48,113 bases of DNA from Bacillota bacterium (GTDB lineage: Bacteria > Bacillota > Clostridia > Lachnospirales > CAG-274): NCBI GenBank assembly GCA_017483905.1, contig JAFUUG010000301.1, positions 1-48,113 of the forward strand, given 5' to 3'. The notes beneath the pieces were generated by a model. That model was given only the letters and a program-made list of their open reading frames with translations, was not told the DNA's origin and did no database searches. The position numbers and the translations under genes are program-made. Shown here in pieces: positions 11,121 through 30,369 of the stretch (the stretch's first letter is position 1; every line of letters starts with the position of its first letter).

Positions 11121-11162
11121 AAAATTCAAATTTATCGACGATTATATTTCAGAATAAATTTA

Positions 11163-11305
11163 TAGTAAACGACAAAAGTATTTATACTTTTGCTCGTTTA
11201 CTCGCGCCGGCTGCGTGCCGCAAAGCGGCTAACCACCTTGTACGCAGCCGTGTGCATACCACGTAGGGTTATAGTAAACGACATTTTTTAATGTCGTTTA
11301 CTATA
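11163..11305 (+). repeat. Dispersed palindromic element, copy 2, with flanking long hairpins
   Basis: The core 11206-11252 matches copy 1 at 8603-8650 in the opposite orientation. It is bracketed by two hairpins that share the arm TAGTAAACGACA: 11164-11202 (17 pairs, one bulge) and 11270-11305 (15 perfect pairs, loop of T and A). The 330-base gap 11005-11334 otherwise holds the lipoprotein's stem-loop and the decarboxylase promoter, with no gene. Confidence 0.75.
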
Positions 11306-19655: not shown

Positions 19656-19859
19656 ATATTTCAGTCCTTTTTTTCATCTCAGAATATTGCTTTAATAGTT
19701 ATCAGCCTTGTGCATCCCCTGATAGTTTTATACTAAACATCATTAATAAATGCCGTTTAATATAATTATAACATATCACAAAAAAAATTCCTATACCATA
19801 ACAAAAATTTTATTAATTTTGAACAATGTCGACAATTTTTCTGATTTATCCATATAGTT

Positions 19860-20080
19860 ATGAACATTTTATCAACAATTTTGTTTACAACTCAAAAATT
19901 TTCAGTTGTTTTTCTATATTTTTTATGTTAATATATTTTTATCAACATTGTTCGTAATTTTTAATATATAATTGCAGTTATCAACAGTTTTATCAACATT
20001 ATGTTGATAACTCTTTATTTTTTACTTTTTTTCAAATATTTTTATGTTTACATATAGTTATCAACAATGTTTATAACTAT
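19860..20080. promoter_or_regulatory. oriC part 1: DnaA-box cluster upstream of dnaA
   Basis: Six exact TTATCAACA boxes lie in this AT-rich stretch: 19869-19877, 19939-19947, 19978-19986, 19990-19998, 20002-20010 (reverse) and 20058-20066. The three at 19978-20010 are packed into 33 bases, with the last two facing each other. The whole gap 19656-20096 between the divergent C39 peptidase and dnaA has no gene. The boxes also overlap the dnaA control region, so DnaA autoregulation is likely. Confidence 0.93.
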
Positions 20081-20096
20081 ATAACGGAGGATAATC

Positions 20097-21443
20097 ATGA
20101 GTGAAACAACCGACAATAACGAAATATGGCTTAATATAAAGTCGCTTTTAAAAGAAGAATCTCATAAAACAACATATGATACATTTCTTTCTCATCTTGA
20201 ATTTCACACATTAACAGAAGATGTATTATATTTAAAGATCGACCCACCGTACTTCAAGGACATAATCAATCTTAAACATCTTCCCGTTATCAAAGAGTGT
20301 GCCGAAAAAATACTTAATAGAGATCTTACAGTCTCTGTTCTTTCCGAGGATGATATAAAAAATTTGAATATTTCGGAAATACCTAAAAATAAGATAACAA
20401 AAAATAATACAAGCCGTAACGGAAACATTGATGAAAGATACATTTTCGATAATTTTGTGGTAGGAAGCAGTAATCAGATGGCAAATGCAATGTCTGTGGC
20501 AGTTGCCCAAAATCCCGGAACTCTGTATAATCCTCTTTTTCTTTACGGTAATTCGGGACTTGGTAAAACACATCTCATGCATGCAATAGGTAATTATGTA
20601 CTTGATGAAAACGAAAATGCAAAAGTACTTTATACATCTTGTGAAAAATTCATGAATGAGCTTATTTCTGCCATTAAATCAGGTAAGAACGTAGAATTCA
20701 GAGATAAATACAGAAAAATAGATGTCCTTCTTATAGATGATATTCAATTTATAAGCGGAAAACAATCTACTCAAGTAGAATTTTTTCATACATTCAATGA
20801 TCTCACTCAGTCAAAAAAACAGATAATTATATGCAGTGATGTTCACCCCAATGAAATGCCGACCCTCGAAGACAGACTCAGAACAAGATTTAACGGTGGT
20901 ATGGTCGTGGATATAGCCCCTCCCGATTTTGAAACAAGGACAGCTATCCTTGAAAAAAAAGCGGAAACAGATCACATAAAACTGCCTAAAGATGTTGCTC
21001 AATTCATAGCACAGCTTATTAAGTCAAATATACGAGAACTTGAAGGTTCTCTCAATAAAGTGATCGCTTATTCACGACTGATAGGAAAAGAAATATCAAT
21101 TGATCTTGTAAAGGAAGCTCTGAAAGACATAATAAACGGCCCTGTTAATTTTGAAATAAACGTAGACTCGATACAGGAAGTAGTAGCAAAACACTACAAC
21201 GTTCCTCTTGCCGATATGAAGGGAAATAAAAAGAATCAGCCGGTAGCCCGTGCAAGACAGGTCTCAATGTATCTATGCTGCCAATTGTTAAATGACTCTC
21301 TCTCAAATATAAGCAAGCAGCTTGACAGAACCCATGCAACAGTGATCCACGGAAAAGATAAAATAGCAAAAGATATGGAAAAAGATGATTATTTCAAAAA
21401 AGAAGTTCTTGAGATCGAAGCAGCAATCAAAAACATGAAGTAG
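20097..21443 (+). CDS. dnaA: Chromosomal replication initiator DnaA
   Basis: 448 residues. Domain I (about 1-85), short domain II, AAA+ domain III with Walker A GNSGLGKT (151-158) and Walker B VLLIDDIQF, and DNA-binding domain IV. Domain IV keeps the ARARQVSMYL basic helix, but the recognition motif reads DRTHATV (410-416) where most bacteria have GRDHTTV; the usual Asp and first Thr of the DHTT signature are replaced by Thr412 and Ala414. The surrounding boxes are all TTATCAACA. Ribosome binding site AACGGAGG. First gene of the dnaA-dnaN-yaaA-recF row; it ends in TAG. Confidence 0.99.
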   Translation: MSETTDNNEIWLNIKSLLKEESHKTTYDTFLSHLEFHTLTEDVLYLKIDPPYFKDIINLKHLPVIKECAEKILNRDLTVSVLSEDDIKNLNISEIPKNKITKNNTSRNGNIDERYIFDNFVVGSSNQMANAMSVAVAQNPGTLYNPLFLYGNSGLGKTHLMHAIGNYVLDENENAKVLYTSCEKFMNELISAIKSGKNVEFRDKYRKIDVLLIDDIQFISGKQSTQVEFFHTFNDLTQSKKQIIICSDVHPNEMPTLEDRLRTRFNGGMVVDIAPPDFETRTAILEKKAETDHIKLPKDVAQFIAQLIKSNIRELEGSLNKVIAYSRLIGKEISIDLVKEALKDIINGPVNFEINVDSIQEVVAKHYNVPLADMKGNKKNQPVARARQVSMYLCCQLLNDSLSNISKQLDRTHATVIHGKDKIAKDMEKDDYFKKEVLEIEAAIKNMK

Positions 21444-21541: not shown

Positions 21542-21684
21542 TTATCTACATAATAATAACAACTTAATGAGCCGCTTGTTTATCAACAAAAAAGATATTA
21601 TCAACAAATAAACAAGCTCTACTACTACAACTACTAAAATATAATAAATATATATGTTAAACACACCGAAAGGAGTTATCAACA
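21542..21684 (+). promoter_or_regulatory. oriC part 2: DnaA boxes, DnaA-trio and unwinding region between dnaA and dnaN
   Basis: Exact TTATCAACA boxes at 21580-21588, 21598-21606 and 21676-21684, and a one-off TTATCTACA at 21542-21550. A trinucleotide run CTA-CTA-CTA-CAA-CTA-CTA (21619-21636) lies 12 bases after the second box, followed directly by a pure A/T stretch (21637-21653). This box-spacer-trio-AT order matches the basal unwinding system described in Bacillus subtilis. The third box fills the space between the dnaN ribosome binding site and its ATG, so bound DnaA could block dnaN translation start or transcription. Confidence 0.85.
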
Positions 21685-24129: not shown

Positions 24130-24136
24130 TAATTGA

Positions 24137-24165
24137 TTGAAAAAATCAAAAAATTATGATATAAT
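24137..24165 (+). promoter_or_regulatory. Promoter-like sequence after recF
   Basis: TTGAAA (24137-24142), 17 bases, TATAAT (24160-24165), followed by ATATAGTTAG. The string TGATATAAT-ATATAGTT recurs at the next promoter (24389-24406), so the two promoters are probably duplicates flanking the DnaA-box block. Confidence 0.6.
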
Positions 24166-24198
24166 TATATAGTTAGCGTCGTTAAAAAATTTCTTAAT

Positions 24199-24312
24199 AA
24201 TTGCAGTTATCAACAGTTTTATCAACAATATGTTGATAACTCTTTATTTTTTACCTGATTTTTTCAGATGTTTTGAAGTTCATATGTACTTATAAACATT
24301 GTTTACAACTTT
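24199..24312 (+). repeat. Diverged duplicate of the pre-dnaA origin segment
   Basis: Positions 24199-24254 match 19970-20024 with a single substitution, including three exact DnaA boxes at 24207-24215, 24219-24227 and 24231-24239 (reverse) in the same spacing. Weaker similarity continues to about 24312, ending in TATAAACATTGTTTACAACT versus TATCAACAATGTTTATAACT. It lies between recF and the lipoprotein gene, 4.2 kb from the original copy and in the same orientation. Confidence 0.9.
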
Positions 24313-24367
24313 TTACATTAAAAAGTATTGTTTTCTGTAAATATCGTTTTTGTGTGTGAATAATTGT

Positions 24368-24396
24368 TTGCAAAAGTCTTGAAATTGTGATATAAT
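24368..24396 (+). promoter_or_regulatory. Promoter of the solute-binding lipoprotein gene
   Basis: TTGCAA (24368-24373), a 17-base spacer and TATAAT (24391-24396), 19 bases before the ATG. GAGGT serves as the ribosome binding site. Confidence 0.7.
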
Positions 24397-24415
24397 AATA
24401 TAGTTGAGGTAAATT

Positions 24416-25909
24416 ATGAAGAAATATTTATATATTTTTATTTCTTTGCTTTTTGTATTAACCGGGTGCAGTAAAACAGGTAGTACAAATATAATTGAAG
24501 AAACCGCAAAAAGCGAGTATAAACCCGAAAAAATAAGGATCGGATTATATGGTACTTTAACAGATGAGGACGACCTTGAAAGTATTGATAAATTAAAAGG
24601 AGAATATGAAAAGAATACAGGAATAAAAATAGAATTTCGTGATTATGGTGCTTATGGTAATTCAGATAACATTGAAATAGCTAAAGAAGAAATTTTTTCG
24701 GACAGCAAAGAGATGTGTGATGTCATAGAGTTAGATAATTATGATGATTATATAAATTATGTAAGAAACGGCTATTTGTGGGATATGAGTGATTCATGGG
24801 AAAATTCCGAATTAAAGAACAGCGGCTTGATAGAAGAAAAATATGTAGATTTTTTCAAGACAGAAAATATAGACGGAAGTGTCGGTTTGTATGGCTTTCC
24901 AAGACAAAAGGGTAGCGGTTATGTTACATACATAAGAAAAGATTGGCTTGATACATTAGGAATATCCGAGCCTGAGACTTATGATGAATTTATAGATATG
25001 TTAAGACGATTTAAAGGCGGGGAATATACCGATAAAAACGGAAAAGTCATTAATTATGATGGTATAGTATCTTATGATGAATATAAAGATTTAGTTGATG
25101 TATATCCATTTGTAATTTCTGATGGATGTCTGTATTATAATCGTATATCTATATTTTTGTATGATATGGATATAGATTTTAGAAAAGGACCAAATAAAAA
25201 TCAGATGAGAATAATAATTGAAAGAATCAAATCTGCTTATAATGAAGGTCTTGTGAAATTATATGGAAGTACAAGTCAATGCCGAGAGTTATTTTTTGAG
25301 GCTTGTGCAGTCGGATGTTTTAATTATATTGCAGGAGAATGGAATAAAATAATTAATGATAATTTGAAAGAAAAAAATGAAAAATACAGTGCAGTAGCAA
25401 TTGCTCCAATCGAAAATGGCAAATATTTCAGATATGAGCCATATTGTTTGGTTATAAATGATAAGTGCGGCTCTGAGGAACACAAAAAAGCTGTTTTTGA
25501 AAACTTTATATCGTATATCCATGACGGAGGAAAGGGTGAACTTCTCTTTACAAGAGGTGTAGAGGGGTACCACTGGGAAGAAAAAGACGGTATAAGGAAA
25601 ATGATACACCCGCTGTCTTATAATGAGGAAAGGATACTTGAAAAAATATATTTAAGTCCTTATTATTCAATATCTAAAAATTACAGAGAATATGAAAATT
25701 TTGAGAAAGATAGTCGAATCGAAAGTTCTCTTGATATTCTTGAAAAGAATCAGAGTAATAATTTTTTGGCATTTAATGCTTATAATTATTGTATTCCCGT
25801 TGAATTTACACAAGCGATAGAAGGAAAATTGACTATAGATGAAGCACTTGATAAATATTACGGAAATGAAGAAAAATTAGGATTAAATGAAATAGGTAAA
25901 ATGAAATAA
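24416..25909 (+). CDS. Orphan extracellular solute-binding lipoprotein
   Basis: 497 residues. Lipoprotein signal with lipobox LTGC (Cys18). The mature part has the type 1 periplasmic-binding layout of ABC sugar/peptide-sugar receptors: an early DKLKGEYEKNTGIKIEF strand-helix pair, LWDMSDSWE, YGFPRQKGSGYVTYIRKDWLDTLG hinge region and PETYDEFIDMLRRFKGG. This resembles the LplA-like family. No permease or ATPase gene is nearby, so it is an orphan receptor or a sensor partner. Its codon use looks more AT-rich than gyrB's. It interrupts the usual recF-gyrB neighbourhood and has its own promoter. Confidence 0.87.
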   Translation: MKKYLYIFISLLFVLTGCSKTGSTNIIEETAKSEYKPEKIRIGLYGTLTDEDDLESIDKLKGEYEKNTGIKIEFRDYGAYGNSDNIEIAKEEIFSDSKEMCDVIELDNYDDYINYVRNGYLWDMSDSWENSELKNSGLIEEKYVDFFKTENIDGSVGLYGFPRQKGSGYVTYIRKDWLDTLGISEPETYDEFIDMLRRFKGGEYTDKNGKVINYDGIVSYDEYKDLVDVYPFVISDGCLYYNRISIFLYDMDIDFRKGPNKNQMRIIIERIKSAYNEGLVKLYGSTSQCRELFFEACAVGCFNYIAGEWNKIINDNLKEKNEKYSAVAIAPIENGKYFRYEPYCLVINDKCGSEEHKKAVFENFISYIHDGGKGELLFTRGVEGYHWEEKDGIRKMIHPLSYNEERILEKIYLSPYYSISKNYREYENFEKDSRIESSLDILEKNQSNNFLAFNAYNYCIPVEFTQAIEGKLTIDEALDKYYGNEEKLGLNEIGKMK

Positions 25910-25939: not shown

Positions 25940-27853
25940 ATGGCACCTGAATATGAAGCTAATGAAATTCAAATACTTGAGGGACTTGAAGCTGTAAGAA
26001 AGCGTCCCGGAATGTATATAGGAACGACAAGCAGCAGGGGACTGCATCACCTTGTATATGAGATAGTGGATAATTCCGTTGATGAGGCATTGGCGGGATT
26101 TTGCAGCGAAATAGAGGTAACAGTCGAAAAAGGCGATATTATATCAGTTAAAGATAACGGAAGAGGTATACCTACGGGAATACACCCTCAGAAAGGTATA
26201 CCTGCCGTTGAGGTCGTATTTACTCTTTTGCACGCAGGAGGTAAATTCGGCGGCGGAGGATATAAAGTATCGGGCGGTCTGCACGGTGTAGGTGCATCGG
26301 TCGTAAATGCGCTCAGTGAATGGCTTACTGTAAGGATATACAGAGAGGGCAAAATCTATGAGCAGAAATATTCAAGGGGCGATGTCGTTATGCCGCTTAC
26401 TGTAGTAGGTGAATGTGACGAGGCGCAGACGGGTACTTTTGTGGAATTCAAGCCCGATAATGAAATATTTGAAGAAACTGTATTTGATTTTGAAATATTA
26501 AAGCAGCATTTACAGGAAACGGCTTTCCTTACAAAAGGATTGAAGATAATCTTAAAAGATGAAAGAAACAGTGATGATATCAAGCAGCAAGTTTATCACT
26601 ATGAGGGCGGGATAAAAGAATTTGTTCAGTATATAAACGACAGTAAAACGCCTATATATGAGGATATATTTTATTGTGAGGGAAGTAAGGATAATGTTTA
26701 TGTTGAAGTTGCTTTTCAGCATAATGACAGCTATATAGAAAGTAATTATTCTTATGCAAATAATATAAATACTACAGACGGCGGAACTCATATAGTGGGA
26801 TTTCGTTCTGCACTTACAAAGACTATAAATGATTATGCCAAGAGATTTGGTCTTATAAAGGAAAACGAAAAGAATTTATCCGGTGATGATGTAAGAGAAG
26901 GTCTTACGTCGGTAGTCAGTATAAAGATAGAAAATCCGCAGTTTGAATCACAGACAAAGACAAAACTTAACAACAGTGAGGCTAAAGGTGCAGTAGAATC
27001 TGTTTTATCGGAAAAATTCGGTTATTATCTTGAAGAGAATCCGAATATTGCAAAGCAGATAGTAGAAAAAGCTCTTACGGCAGCAAGAGCAAGAGATGCT
27101 GCAAAAAAAGCAAGAGAACTCGTTACGAGAAAATCTGTTCTTGAAACAAGCAGACTTCCGGGAAAACTTACAGACTGTACGGAAAAAGATCCGGAAAAAT
27201 GCGAGATATATATAGTTGAGGGTAATTCCGCAGGCGGTTCGGCCTGTAATGCAAGAACTCCCGCAACACAGGCTGTTCTTCCTCTCAGAGGTAAGATACT
27301 CAATGTAGAAAAAGCGAGAGATGACAGAATATTCGGAAATGAAGAGATAAGGTCGATGATAACGGCTTTCGGTACGGGTATACACAATGATTTCGATATA
27401 ACGAAATTAAGATACCATAAGATAATACTTATGACCGATGCCGATGTTGAAGGTGCGCATATCACTACATTGCTTCTGACGTTTATTTTCAGATTCATGC
27501 CGAAACTTATTGACGAGGGTTATGTATATCTTGCACAGCCGCCGTTATACAAGCTTGAAAAGGGCAAAGTCATCAATTATGCCTACAGCGATGAAGAAAG
27601 AGATATGTATATAAAAGAGATGGGTGCAGAGGGAATGAAGCCGATACAGAGATACAAAGGTCTTGGTGAAATGGATGCAGACCAGCTCTGGGAAACGACT
27701 ATGGATCCCGAAAGAAGAATACTTGTAAAGGTAAATATTGAAGATGCAAGAATAGCCGATCAGATATTTGATATGCTTATGGGGGATAAGGTTGAACCGA
27801 GAAGAGAATTTATACAGCAAAATGCAAAATACGTTCAGAACCTTGATATATAA
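25940..27853 (+). CDS. gyrB: DNA gyrase subunit B
   Basis: 637 residues, normal length for the ATPase subunit of the negative-supercoiling topoisomerase. GHKL ATPase: [13 protein letters not shown] with the ATP/Mg-binding Asn, DNGRGIP, and [19 protein letters not shown] lid. [18 protein letters not shown] (catalytic Glu) and [11 protein letters not shown] (metal-binding Asp pair), then the C-terminal [20 protein letters not shown]. Ribosome binding site AAAGGAG before ATG 25940. It lies 23 bases upstream of gyrA, forming one transcription unit. Confidence 0.98.
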
Positions 27854-27876: not shown

Positions 27877-30369
27877 ATGCAGGATAATCAATTTGATAAG
27901 ATAATAGATGTTGAAATTTCCGATGAAATGAAAAAATCTTATATAGACTATGCCATGAGCGTTATAGTCGCAAGAGCATTGCCTGATGTAAGAGATGGAT
28001 TGAAGCCTGTTCACAGAAGGATCTTATATGCAATGAATGAACTTAATTTAGGTCCTACAAGTGCATATAAGAAAAGTGCTAAGGTCGTCGGTGATACGAT
28101 GGGTAAATATCACCCTCACGGTGATGCTTCTATCTACGATGCTCTTGTAAGGCTTGCGCAGGATTTCTCTATGAGATATCCTCTTGTTGACGGTCACGGA
28201 AATTTCGGTTCGATAGACGGTCATCAGGCTGCGGCACAGAGATATACAGAAGCAAGACTTAGTCGTATGGCTATGGATATGCTTGTGGATATAGAAAAAG
28301 AAACGGTAGATTTTATGGATACCTACGACAGCGAGGGAAAAGAACCTACCGTACTTCCGTCAAGATTTCCGAATCTGCTTGTAAACGGCGCATCGGGTAT
28401 TGCTGTAGGTATGGCAACGAATATTCCGCCGCATAACTTAGGTGAGGTCATAGACGGAATAAATCTTGTGATAGATAACAGGATAAATGAAAAGAGAGAT
28501 ACACAAGTAGAAGAATTACTGCCGATAATAAAAGGTCCTGATTTTCCAACGGGTGCAAATATCCTCGGAAAACATGGAATAATAAGTGCCTATAAAACAG
28601 GCAGGGGAAAAATAACTGTTCGCTCGACTGCTGAAATAGAAACGGCAAAAAGCGGTAAGGAAACTATTGTAGTTACCGAGATACCGTTTCAGGTGAATAA
28701 GGCTCGAATGATAGAGAGGATAGCCGATCTTGTAAGAGATAAAAAGATAGAGGGAATATCCGATCTTCATGATGCTTCCGACAGAAACGGAATAAGAATA
28801 ATAATAGAGTGTAAGAAAGATGCTTCGGCTGAAATAGTATTGAATCAGCTTTATAATTATTCACAGCTTCAGGAAACATACAGTATAAATTTTCTTGCGA
28901 TAGTTGACGGAGAGCCTAAAACACTTAATTTAAAACAAATACTTGAATGTTATTTAAAGCATCAGGAAGATGTAATAACAAGAAGAACAAAATTCGATCT
29001 TGATAAAGCAAGCCGCAGGGCACATATAATAGAGGGTCTTTTAAAGGCACTTGATTTCATAGACGAAGTAATAAATATAATCAGATCATCAAAGACGACT
29101 AATGAGGCTAAGGAAAGACTGACGGAAAGATTTGATTTCAGTGAAGCGCAGGTTACGGCTATTGTTGAGATGAGATTAAGAAGTCTGACAGGTCTTGAAA
29201 GAGAAAAACTCGAAGATGAACAGAATAAACTTACAGAGCTTATAAAAGAACTTGAATCCATACTTGCAAGCGAGGACAAACTTCTTACGGTAATAAAAAC
29301 AGAGCTTCTTGCAATAAAGAATAAATGTGCCGATGAAAGAAGAACCAAACTTCTGCCATATCAGGGCGATATAGATATAGAAGATATGATCGAAGATGAA
29401 ATGAGCGTTATAACCATGACGCAGTTCGACTATATCAAGAGATTGCCTCTTGATACTTATAAGAGCCAGAACAGAGGCGGAAAAGGTATAATAGGTATGC
29501 AGACGAGGGAAGAAGATTATGTAAAAGATCTCTTCCTTGCAAGCAATCATGATTATATCCTCTTCTTTACAAATAAGGGTAAAGTATACAGAATAAAGGC
29601 TTATCAGATACCTGAAGCCGGAAGAACTGCAAAGGGTACTCCGATAATAAATATGCTTCAGATAGACAGCGGTGAAAAAATATCGGCGGCTGTTCCGGTA
29701 AGAGAAGAATACGAAAATCACTCTCTTACGATGATAACGAAAAACGGTATAATAAAGAGGACAGATGCCGAACAGTTCAGAAATATAAGAAGAATGGGAT
29801 TAAAAGCAGTCAATTTCAGGGAAGATGATGATGAGCTTATATCTGTACTTAAGACAGACGGTACAAAAGAGATATTTGTTGCTACAAAACTCGGTATGGC
29901 TATAAGATTTGACGAGCAGGATCTCAGAAATATGGGAAGAACTGCCGCAGGTGTCAAGAGTATAACTCTTTCGGAGGGCGATGAGGTAATAGGTGCCGAA
30001 ACGGTTGATGAAGGATCGAAGGTACTTATGGTAAGCGAAAACGGTTACGGAAAATGTACTCCTGTGAAAGAATATACAAAACAGAACAGAGGCGGTAAGG
30101 GTAAGAAAACATACAGAATAACCGAAAAATCGGGAAATCTGACAGCCATAAAAGAGGTAAATGAAAATGAAGAGCTTATGCTTGCCACAAGTGAGGGTGT
30201 AGTAATAAGAATAAGAATAAAAGATATTTCAACAATGGGAAGAATAACGCAAGGTGTCAAGCTTATAAATCTCAGTAATGAAGTAAAGGTAGTAGGTGTT
30301 GCAAAAATAGCCGAAGAATATGTCGAAGAAGATGAAACGGCAGAAGTTAATGATGAAAATAAGGAATAA
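27877..30369 (+). CDS. gyrA: DNA gyrase subunit A
   Basis: 830 residues. Winged-helix and tower region with the catalytic Tyr in [11 protein letters not shown]. The quinolone-determining region reads HGDASIYD, so Ala rather than Ser sits at the position equivalent to E. coli Ser83, as is natural in some other genera. The C-terminal beta-pinwheel contains two GyrA-box-like motifs, both QNRGGKG (about residues 530 and 735), which favours gyrase over topoisomerase IV. A short acidic tail ([14 protein letters not shown]) follows. AGAAAGGA precedes the ATG. Confidence 0.97.

Follow-up and report, generated by a model that had tools for sequence, protein, structure and literature searches.

Why should a block of DnaA boxes from the replication origin be present once more between recF and gyrB? 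The locus lies in a 48,113-nt stretch of DNA (the window), which is contig C199 of the draft genome (3.5 Mb, 726 contigs) of an uncultured bacterium. The initial annotation had pointed out here about 55 bases with one substitution relative to a segment upstream of dnaA, three exact boxes in identical spacing, and weaker similarity over some 55 further bases, and all of this was borne out by our analysis. Pairwise alignment of 24197-24254 with 19968-20025 revealed one substitution in 58 bp, against 17 differences (gaps counted) between the right half of the copy and the origin block over the next 58 alignment columns (Fisher P 4e-5 for the difference counts of the left 58 bp and the right 58 columns). 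When 24130-24415 was compared by BLAST with its own genome, 24197-24310 matched 19968-20078 (86% identity, E 1.9e-31), and a second, weaker match covered 19856-19952 (75%, E 4e-8). These matches indicate that oriC1, upstream of dnaA, consists of two related blocks (A and B), the block after recF being a third (C), which is nearer to B than to A. The features concerned are as follows.

19856-19952, + strand: block A, an older related block in oriC1 (BLAST match)
19968-20078, + strand: block B, the source-like counterpart within oriC1, ahead of dnaA (BLAST match)
20097-21443, + strand: dnaA
24197-24254, + strand: 58-bp core of block C, a copy of block B of the origin except for one substitution
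24207-24215, + strand: DnaA box 1, TTATCAACA, exact
24219-24227, + strand: DnaA box 2, TTATCAACA, 3 bp after box 1
24231-24239, − strand: DnaA box 3, TTATCAACA, inverted, 3 bp after box 2
24255-24312, + strand: right half of block C, where the copy continues in diverged form (17 of 58 alignment columns differ)
24290-24298, + strand: degraded fourth box, TTATAAACA

The three exact boxes of block C form a ++− array with 3-bp gaps, spanning 33 bp (24207-24239), and their register (24207+, 24219+, 24231−) is the same 12-nt register as that of block B (19978+, 19990+, 20002−). From base composition, about 8e-9 exact triple arrays of this geometry would be expected in a genome, and an expectation in the order of 1e-8 means that the array is not a product of chance. 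With three exact boxes in 33 bp, away from the gaps on either side of dnaA, block C has the box content expected of a DnaA-box cluster (DBC; three or more in 100 bp), and boxes 1 and 2, separated by 3 bp, make up a double DnaA box (a tandem pair 2-3 bp apart). The fourth box, intact in block B at 20058, is degraded in block C.

The boxes are real and exact, although their form is TTATCAACA and not the canonical TTATCCACA. This single-base variant of the consensus was seen 101 times in 103 origin gaps of relatives, where 1.6 occurrences were expected, and is the second commonest box form there after TTATCCACA (126). Furthermore, neighbouring boxes ahead of dnaA in relatives are most often spaced by 12 nt. 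A search with the composite pattern TTATCMACA-N3-TTATCMACA-N3-TGTKGATAA (at most one mismatch) found the triple array in 69 of the 392 genomes of the order, whereas the reversed pattern, used as control, was found in none; where the retrieved locus extended to dnaA, the array mostly lay ~170-300 bp upstream of this gene. Within the order, the 33-bp three-box arrangement recurs as a module of the origin. Given this recurrence, and since E. coli DnaA in vivo mainly binds box pairs spaced by 2-3 bp (PMC11317965), binding of DnaA to block C is likely, and its assignment as a predicted DnaA-binding cluster is well supported.

Two observations concern the array in relatives. In about 35 of them (L144-L194, with the single exception of L188) the ++− array lies on the strand opposite to dnaA, whereas block B (19978-20010 in the window) runs ++− along the direction of dnaA, so that oriC1 of the lineage studied here itself appears rearranged. 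One relative (G357) has near-identical triple-array sequences on two contigs (L179 at 1475 and L180 at 3055), each adjoining the same small gene (MTSKEYLQQIRADDLRIEQ), an arrangement suggestive of a DnaA array carried by a phage or mobile element. No exact triple array was detected in the viral contigs searched.

The triple-array search also gave matches at places without dnaA. The array is found at the 3′ end of murC in three loci (L178, L181 and L193), and L176 adjoins the same neighbour gene as L178. In the genome of the window, the junction of leuA and murC (C2:13625-13820; L077 5626-5863) holds five exact boxes. We surveyed this genome and 29 relatives (L195-L224) for exact boxes from −150 to +400 of the stop codon of murC, the gene being identified by a sequence motif. 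At least two exact boxes near the stop were present in 18 of the 30 genomes, and box density was 3.94/kb in this interval, whereas the 5′ side had 0.00/kb and the coding region 0.16/kb. As judged from these counts, a cluster of DnaA boxes is conserved in the order where the putative murC ends, and this cluster appears to be origin-proximal, as murC and recF lie 10-70 kb apart on one contig in several relatives. Its presence in 18 of the 30 genomes suggests that box clusters away from oriC are nothing unusual in the order; the literature that we found on DnaA boxes makes no mention of murC. The mutL linker of the same genome (C566:826-942; L076 805-942) contains two tandem double DnaA boxes with 12-nt spacing and is not conserved; it was rejected as a conserved DBC (1 of 30 genomes) and serves as a control for murC. 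A candidate at C281:4413-4508 was discarded as well, its boxes being codons of a YQQ-repeat protein. At L078 6392-6584 (C393), several TTATCAACA boxes fall inside the coding region of a 353-aa protein, in a VDN-rich stretch, and may reflect codon usage and not DnaA sites.

As to the surroundings of block C, the two similar promoter sequences that had been annotated on either side of it were both confirmed.

24137-24165, + strand: P1, TTGAAA-17-TATAAT (11/12, TG-extended −10), just after recF
24368-24396, + strand: P2, TTGCAA-17-TATAAT (10/12, TG-extended −10), just before the lipoprotein gene
24416-25909, + strand: gene for a solute-binding lipoprotein (SBP_bac_1)
25940-27853, + strand: gyrB, separated from the lipoprotein gene by 30 bp
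27877-30369, + strand: gyrA

P1 and P2 are identical at 38 of 50 positions without gaps, block C is situated between them, and the box array begins ~42 bp beyond the −10 of P1. An extended −10 motif (TGNTATAAT) is present in 29 of the 36 recF-gyrB gaps longer than 90 bp (window counted; 28 of the 35 relatives), where ~2 would be expected, and P1 and P2 are, by this count, at a conserved promoter position of the gyr operon. In several relatives remB lies between recF and gyrB, where the window has the lipoprotein gene. No promoter was seen in the 30-bp gap between the lipoprotein gene and gyrB, and an Rfam scan of the whole window gave no match. DnaA control of the lipoprotein gene, which the initial annotation had considered, agrees with the promoters flanking the copy but is too narrow a proposal, and should be widened to gyrase, since gyrB follows 30 bp downstream and the promoters stand where relatives have that of their gyr operon.

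Our preferred explanation, to which we give roughly even credence, is that block C is an extra origin-proximal, DBC-like DnaA-binding cluster that would act as a local DnaA sink and as a brake on lipoprotein-gyrBA transcription. As an additional DnaA-binding site, it would most likely fine-tune the start of replication and/or gyrase expression. Among the functions considered at the outset, a DnaA-titrating or regulatory site is the one favoured. Within this lineage, the oriC1 array would have been copied to a new place, the leader region of the operon of the lipoprotein gene, gyrB and gyrA, where ATP-DnaA could bind it cooperatively. Being ~4 kb from the origin, block C would be duplicated right after initiation and would then absorb free DnaA, as B. 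subtilis DnaA-box clusters do. DnaA bound there would sit ~40 bp beyond P1 and ~130 bp ahead of P2, a position at which it would slow transcription from P1 and could couple the level of gyrBA expression to the initiation cycle.

Known systems offer several points of comparison. The B. subtilis DBCs (Okumura et al. 2012, via PMC5295017 and PMC13220808) are, like block C, box clusters near the origin and outside oriC, and, according to these two reviews, their combined deletion causes early initiation. By analogy, block C would also bind DnaA and reduce its availability; unlike the DBCs described there, it is a recent copy of the genome's own oriC1 array and lies in the leader of the gyrase operon. 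In E. coli, double DnaA boxes occur upstream of purH, polA and mutH/DARS2 (PMC11317965); block C shares the tandem, 3-bp-spaced boxes ahead of genes and has a third, inverted box in addition. Regulation of gyrBA by a double-DnaA-box site is not described in the literature found. E. coli datA is also a box cluster outside oriC and lowers the availability or activity of DnaA. It differs in being ~1 kb long with five boxes, and its IHF site and promotion of DnaA-ATP hydrolysis (PMC5295017) are features described for datA itself.

The alternative that survives best, although we regard it as somewhat unlikely, is that block C is a recent neutral duplication or conversion tract, with a 58-bp core too young to have diverged, which may bind DnaA and yet be invisible to selection. 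Selection on the boxes or recent conversion had been suggested from the start as the reason for the high identity. It is not accounted for by selection acting solely on the boxes, because the core has 31 positions outside the boxes and only one of these has changed, i.e. they are about as well preserved as the boxes, whereas recent copying fits. Moreover, when relatives were searched for the post-recF copy, at least two exact boxes were present in the recF-gyrB gap of the window only and of none of the 44 other genomes with a measurable gap. The copy is specific to its own lineage, and an ancestral post-recF cluster was rejected on these counts. The relatives searched included no other genome of the same genus, and a RecF search of genome contigs gave only 4 distant loci. 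The decay of the fourth box and the existence of other non-conserved box clusters in the lineage, such as that of the mutL linker, also agree with neutrality. These points weigh on the preferred explanation: conservation over time cannot be shown for a copy known from one genome, and a preserved stretch wider than the boxes can be explained by recent copying without function. On the other hand, the three boxes are all still exact, and the sharp contrast between left and right halves would require either two events, duplication long ago and conversion more recently, or a conversion tract of very limited length.

It is unlikely that block C is a purely transcriptional site, at which DnaA would repress or activate the lipoprotein-gyrBA operon and leave replication timing unaffected. 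The location between P1 and P2, the 30 bp from the lipoprotein gene to gyrB and the conserved position of the gyr promoter would suit such a role, but no report of DnaA control of gyrB was found in a narrow literature search, and the lipoprotein insertion is lineage-specific and therefore lacks comparative support. A broader proposal, which we find rather doubtful, is that gyrase expression is wired to the initiator, the oriC1 array between the gyrBA promoters letting DnaA level or activity set the supercoiling capacity, cell cycle by cell cycle, in a feedback loop between DnaA and gyrase.

A third functional box cluster of oriC, as first envisaged, would imply a tripartite origin in which block C loops with oriC1 and oriC2 and is required for normal initiation. 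The array is the same as in oriC1, lies ~4 kb away within the dnaA-gyrA gene cluster, and separated box clusters are known to act via looping in bipartite origins (PMC7561715). However, the window already has the parts of the bipartite oriC of Firmicutes such as B. subtilis and C. difficile, i.e. a normal oriC1 upstream of dnaA and, in the dnaA-dnaN gap, an oriC2 with DnaA-trios.

21598-21606, + strand: DnaA box of a probable basal unwinding system (oriC2)
21619-21636, + strand: DnaA-trio-like CTACTACTACAACTACTA, 12 bp past this box

This unwinding module of box, 12-bp spacer and CTACTACTACAACTACTA agrees with the published basal unwinding system, in which spacer lengths peak at 10-13 bp (PMC8287927), and with the C. 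difficile origin (PMC7561715). CTA runs like CTACTACTACAACTACTA are found in 40 of the 54 dnaA-dnaN gaps (window included), and in the comparison of relatives box density is ~4.7 boxes/kb in both the dnaA-upstream and the dnaA-dnaN gaps. Block C repeats the oriC1-type array but lies beyond recF, and inspection revealed no DnaA-trios (CTA-type run), and hence no box-spacer-trio module, beside it. Furthermore, GC skew changes sign at ~19-21 kb, i.e. at dnaA, and not at 24 kb. Block C is absent at the same place in relatives, which manage without it, and is not a conserved part of the order's oriC; our literature search found no report of a third box cluster at oriC. With trios missing, no counterpart in relatives and a usually bipartite origin in the order, a third origin module is quite improbable.

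The genome also contains a ~145-bp structured repeat, which starts with the palindrome TATAGTAAACGACATTAAAAAATGTCGTTTACTATAA, ends with TGTCGTTTACTATA, occurs at 11150-11300 of the window and at many other loci (L089-L108), and appears MITE-like. The palindrome has 54 copies in this genome (at most 3 mismatches; control 0), many of them at contig ends, and contigs of the assembly tend to break in dispersed repeats of ~100-130 bp. Solitary diverged palindromes of this family lie upstream of dnaA (19736-19765) and next to block C.

24168-24196, + strand: damaged copy of the dispersed palindrome (TATAGTAAACGACATTAAAAAATGTCGTTTACTATAA family)

A repeat-mediated misjoin, conceivable in a fragmented draft of 726 contigs with many dispersed repeats, is nevertheless very improbable, since the longest word common to blocks B and C is just 31 bp, against ~100-130 bp for the repeats in which contigs break, and lies in unique flanks, with recF and gyrB in the expected order and the two copies not identical.

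Block C is most likely a lineage-specific addition to a known type of element, the DnaA-box cluster outside oriC. An origin sub-module seen copied to a new site near oriC would represent a plausible route by which initiation-tuning DnaA-box clusters are born. Its unusual location in the gyrase operon makes a link between DnaA and supercoiling directly testable, and the recurrent 33-bp three-box module and the murC cluster provide concrete targets in culturable relatives.
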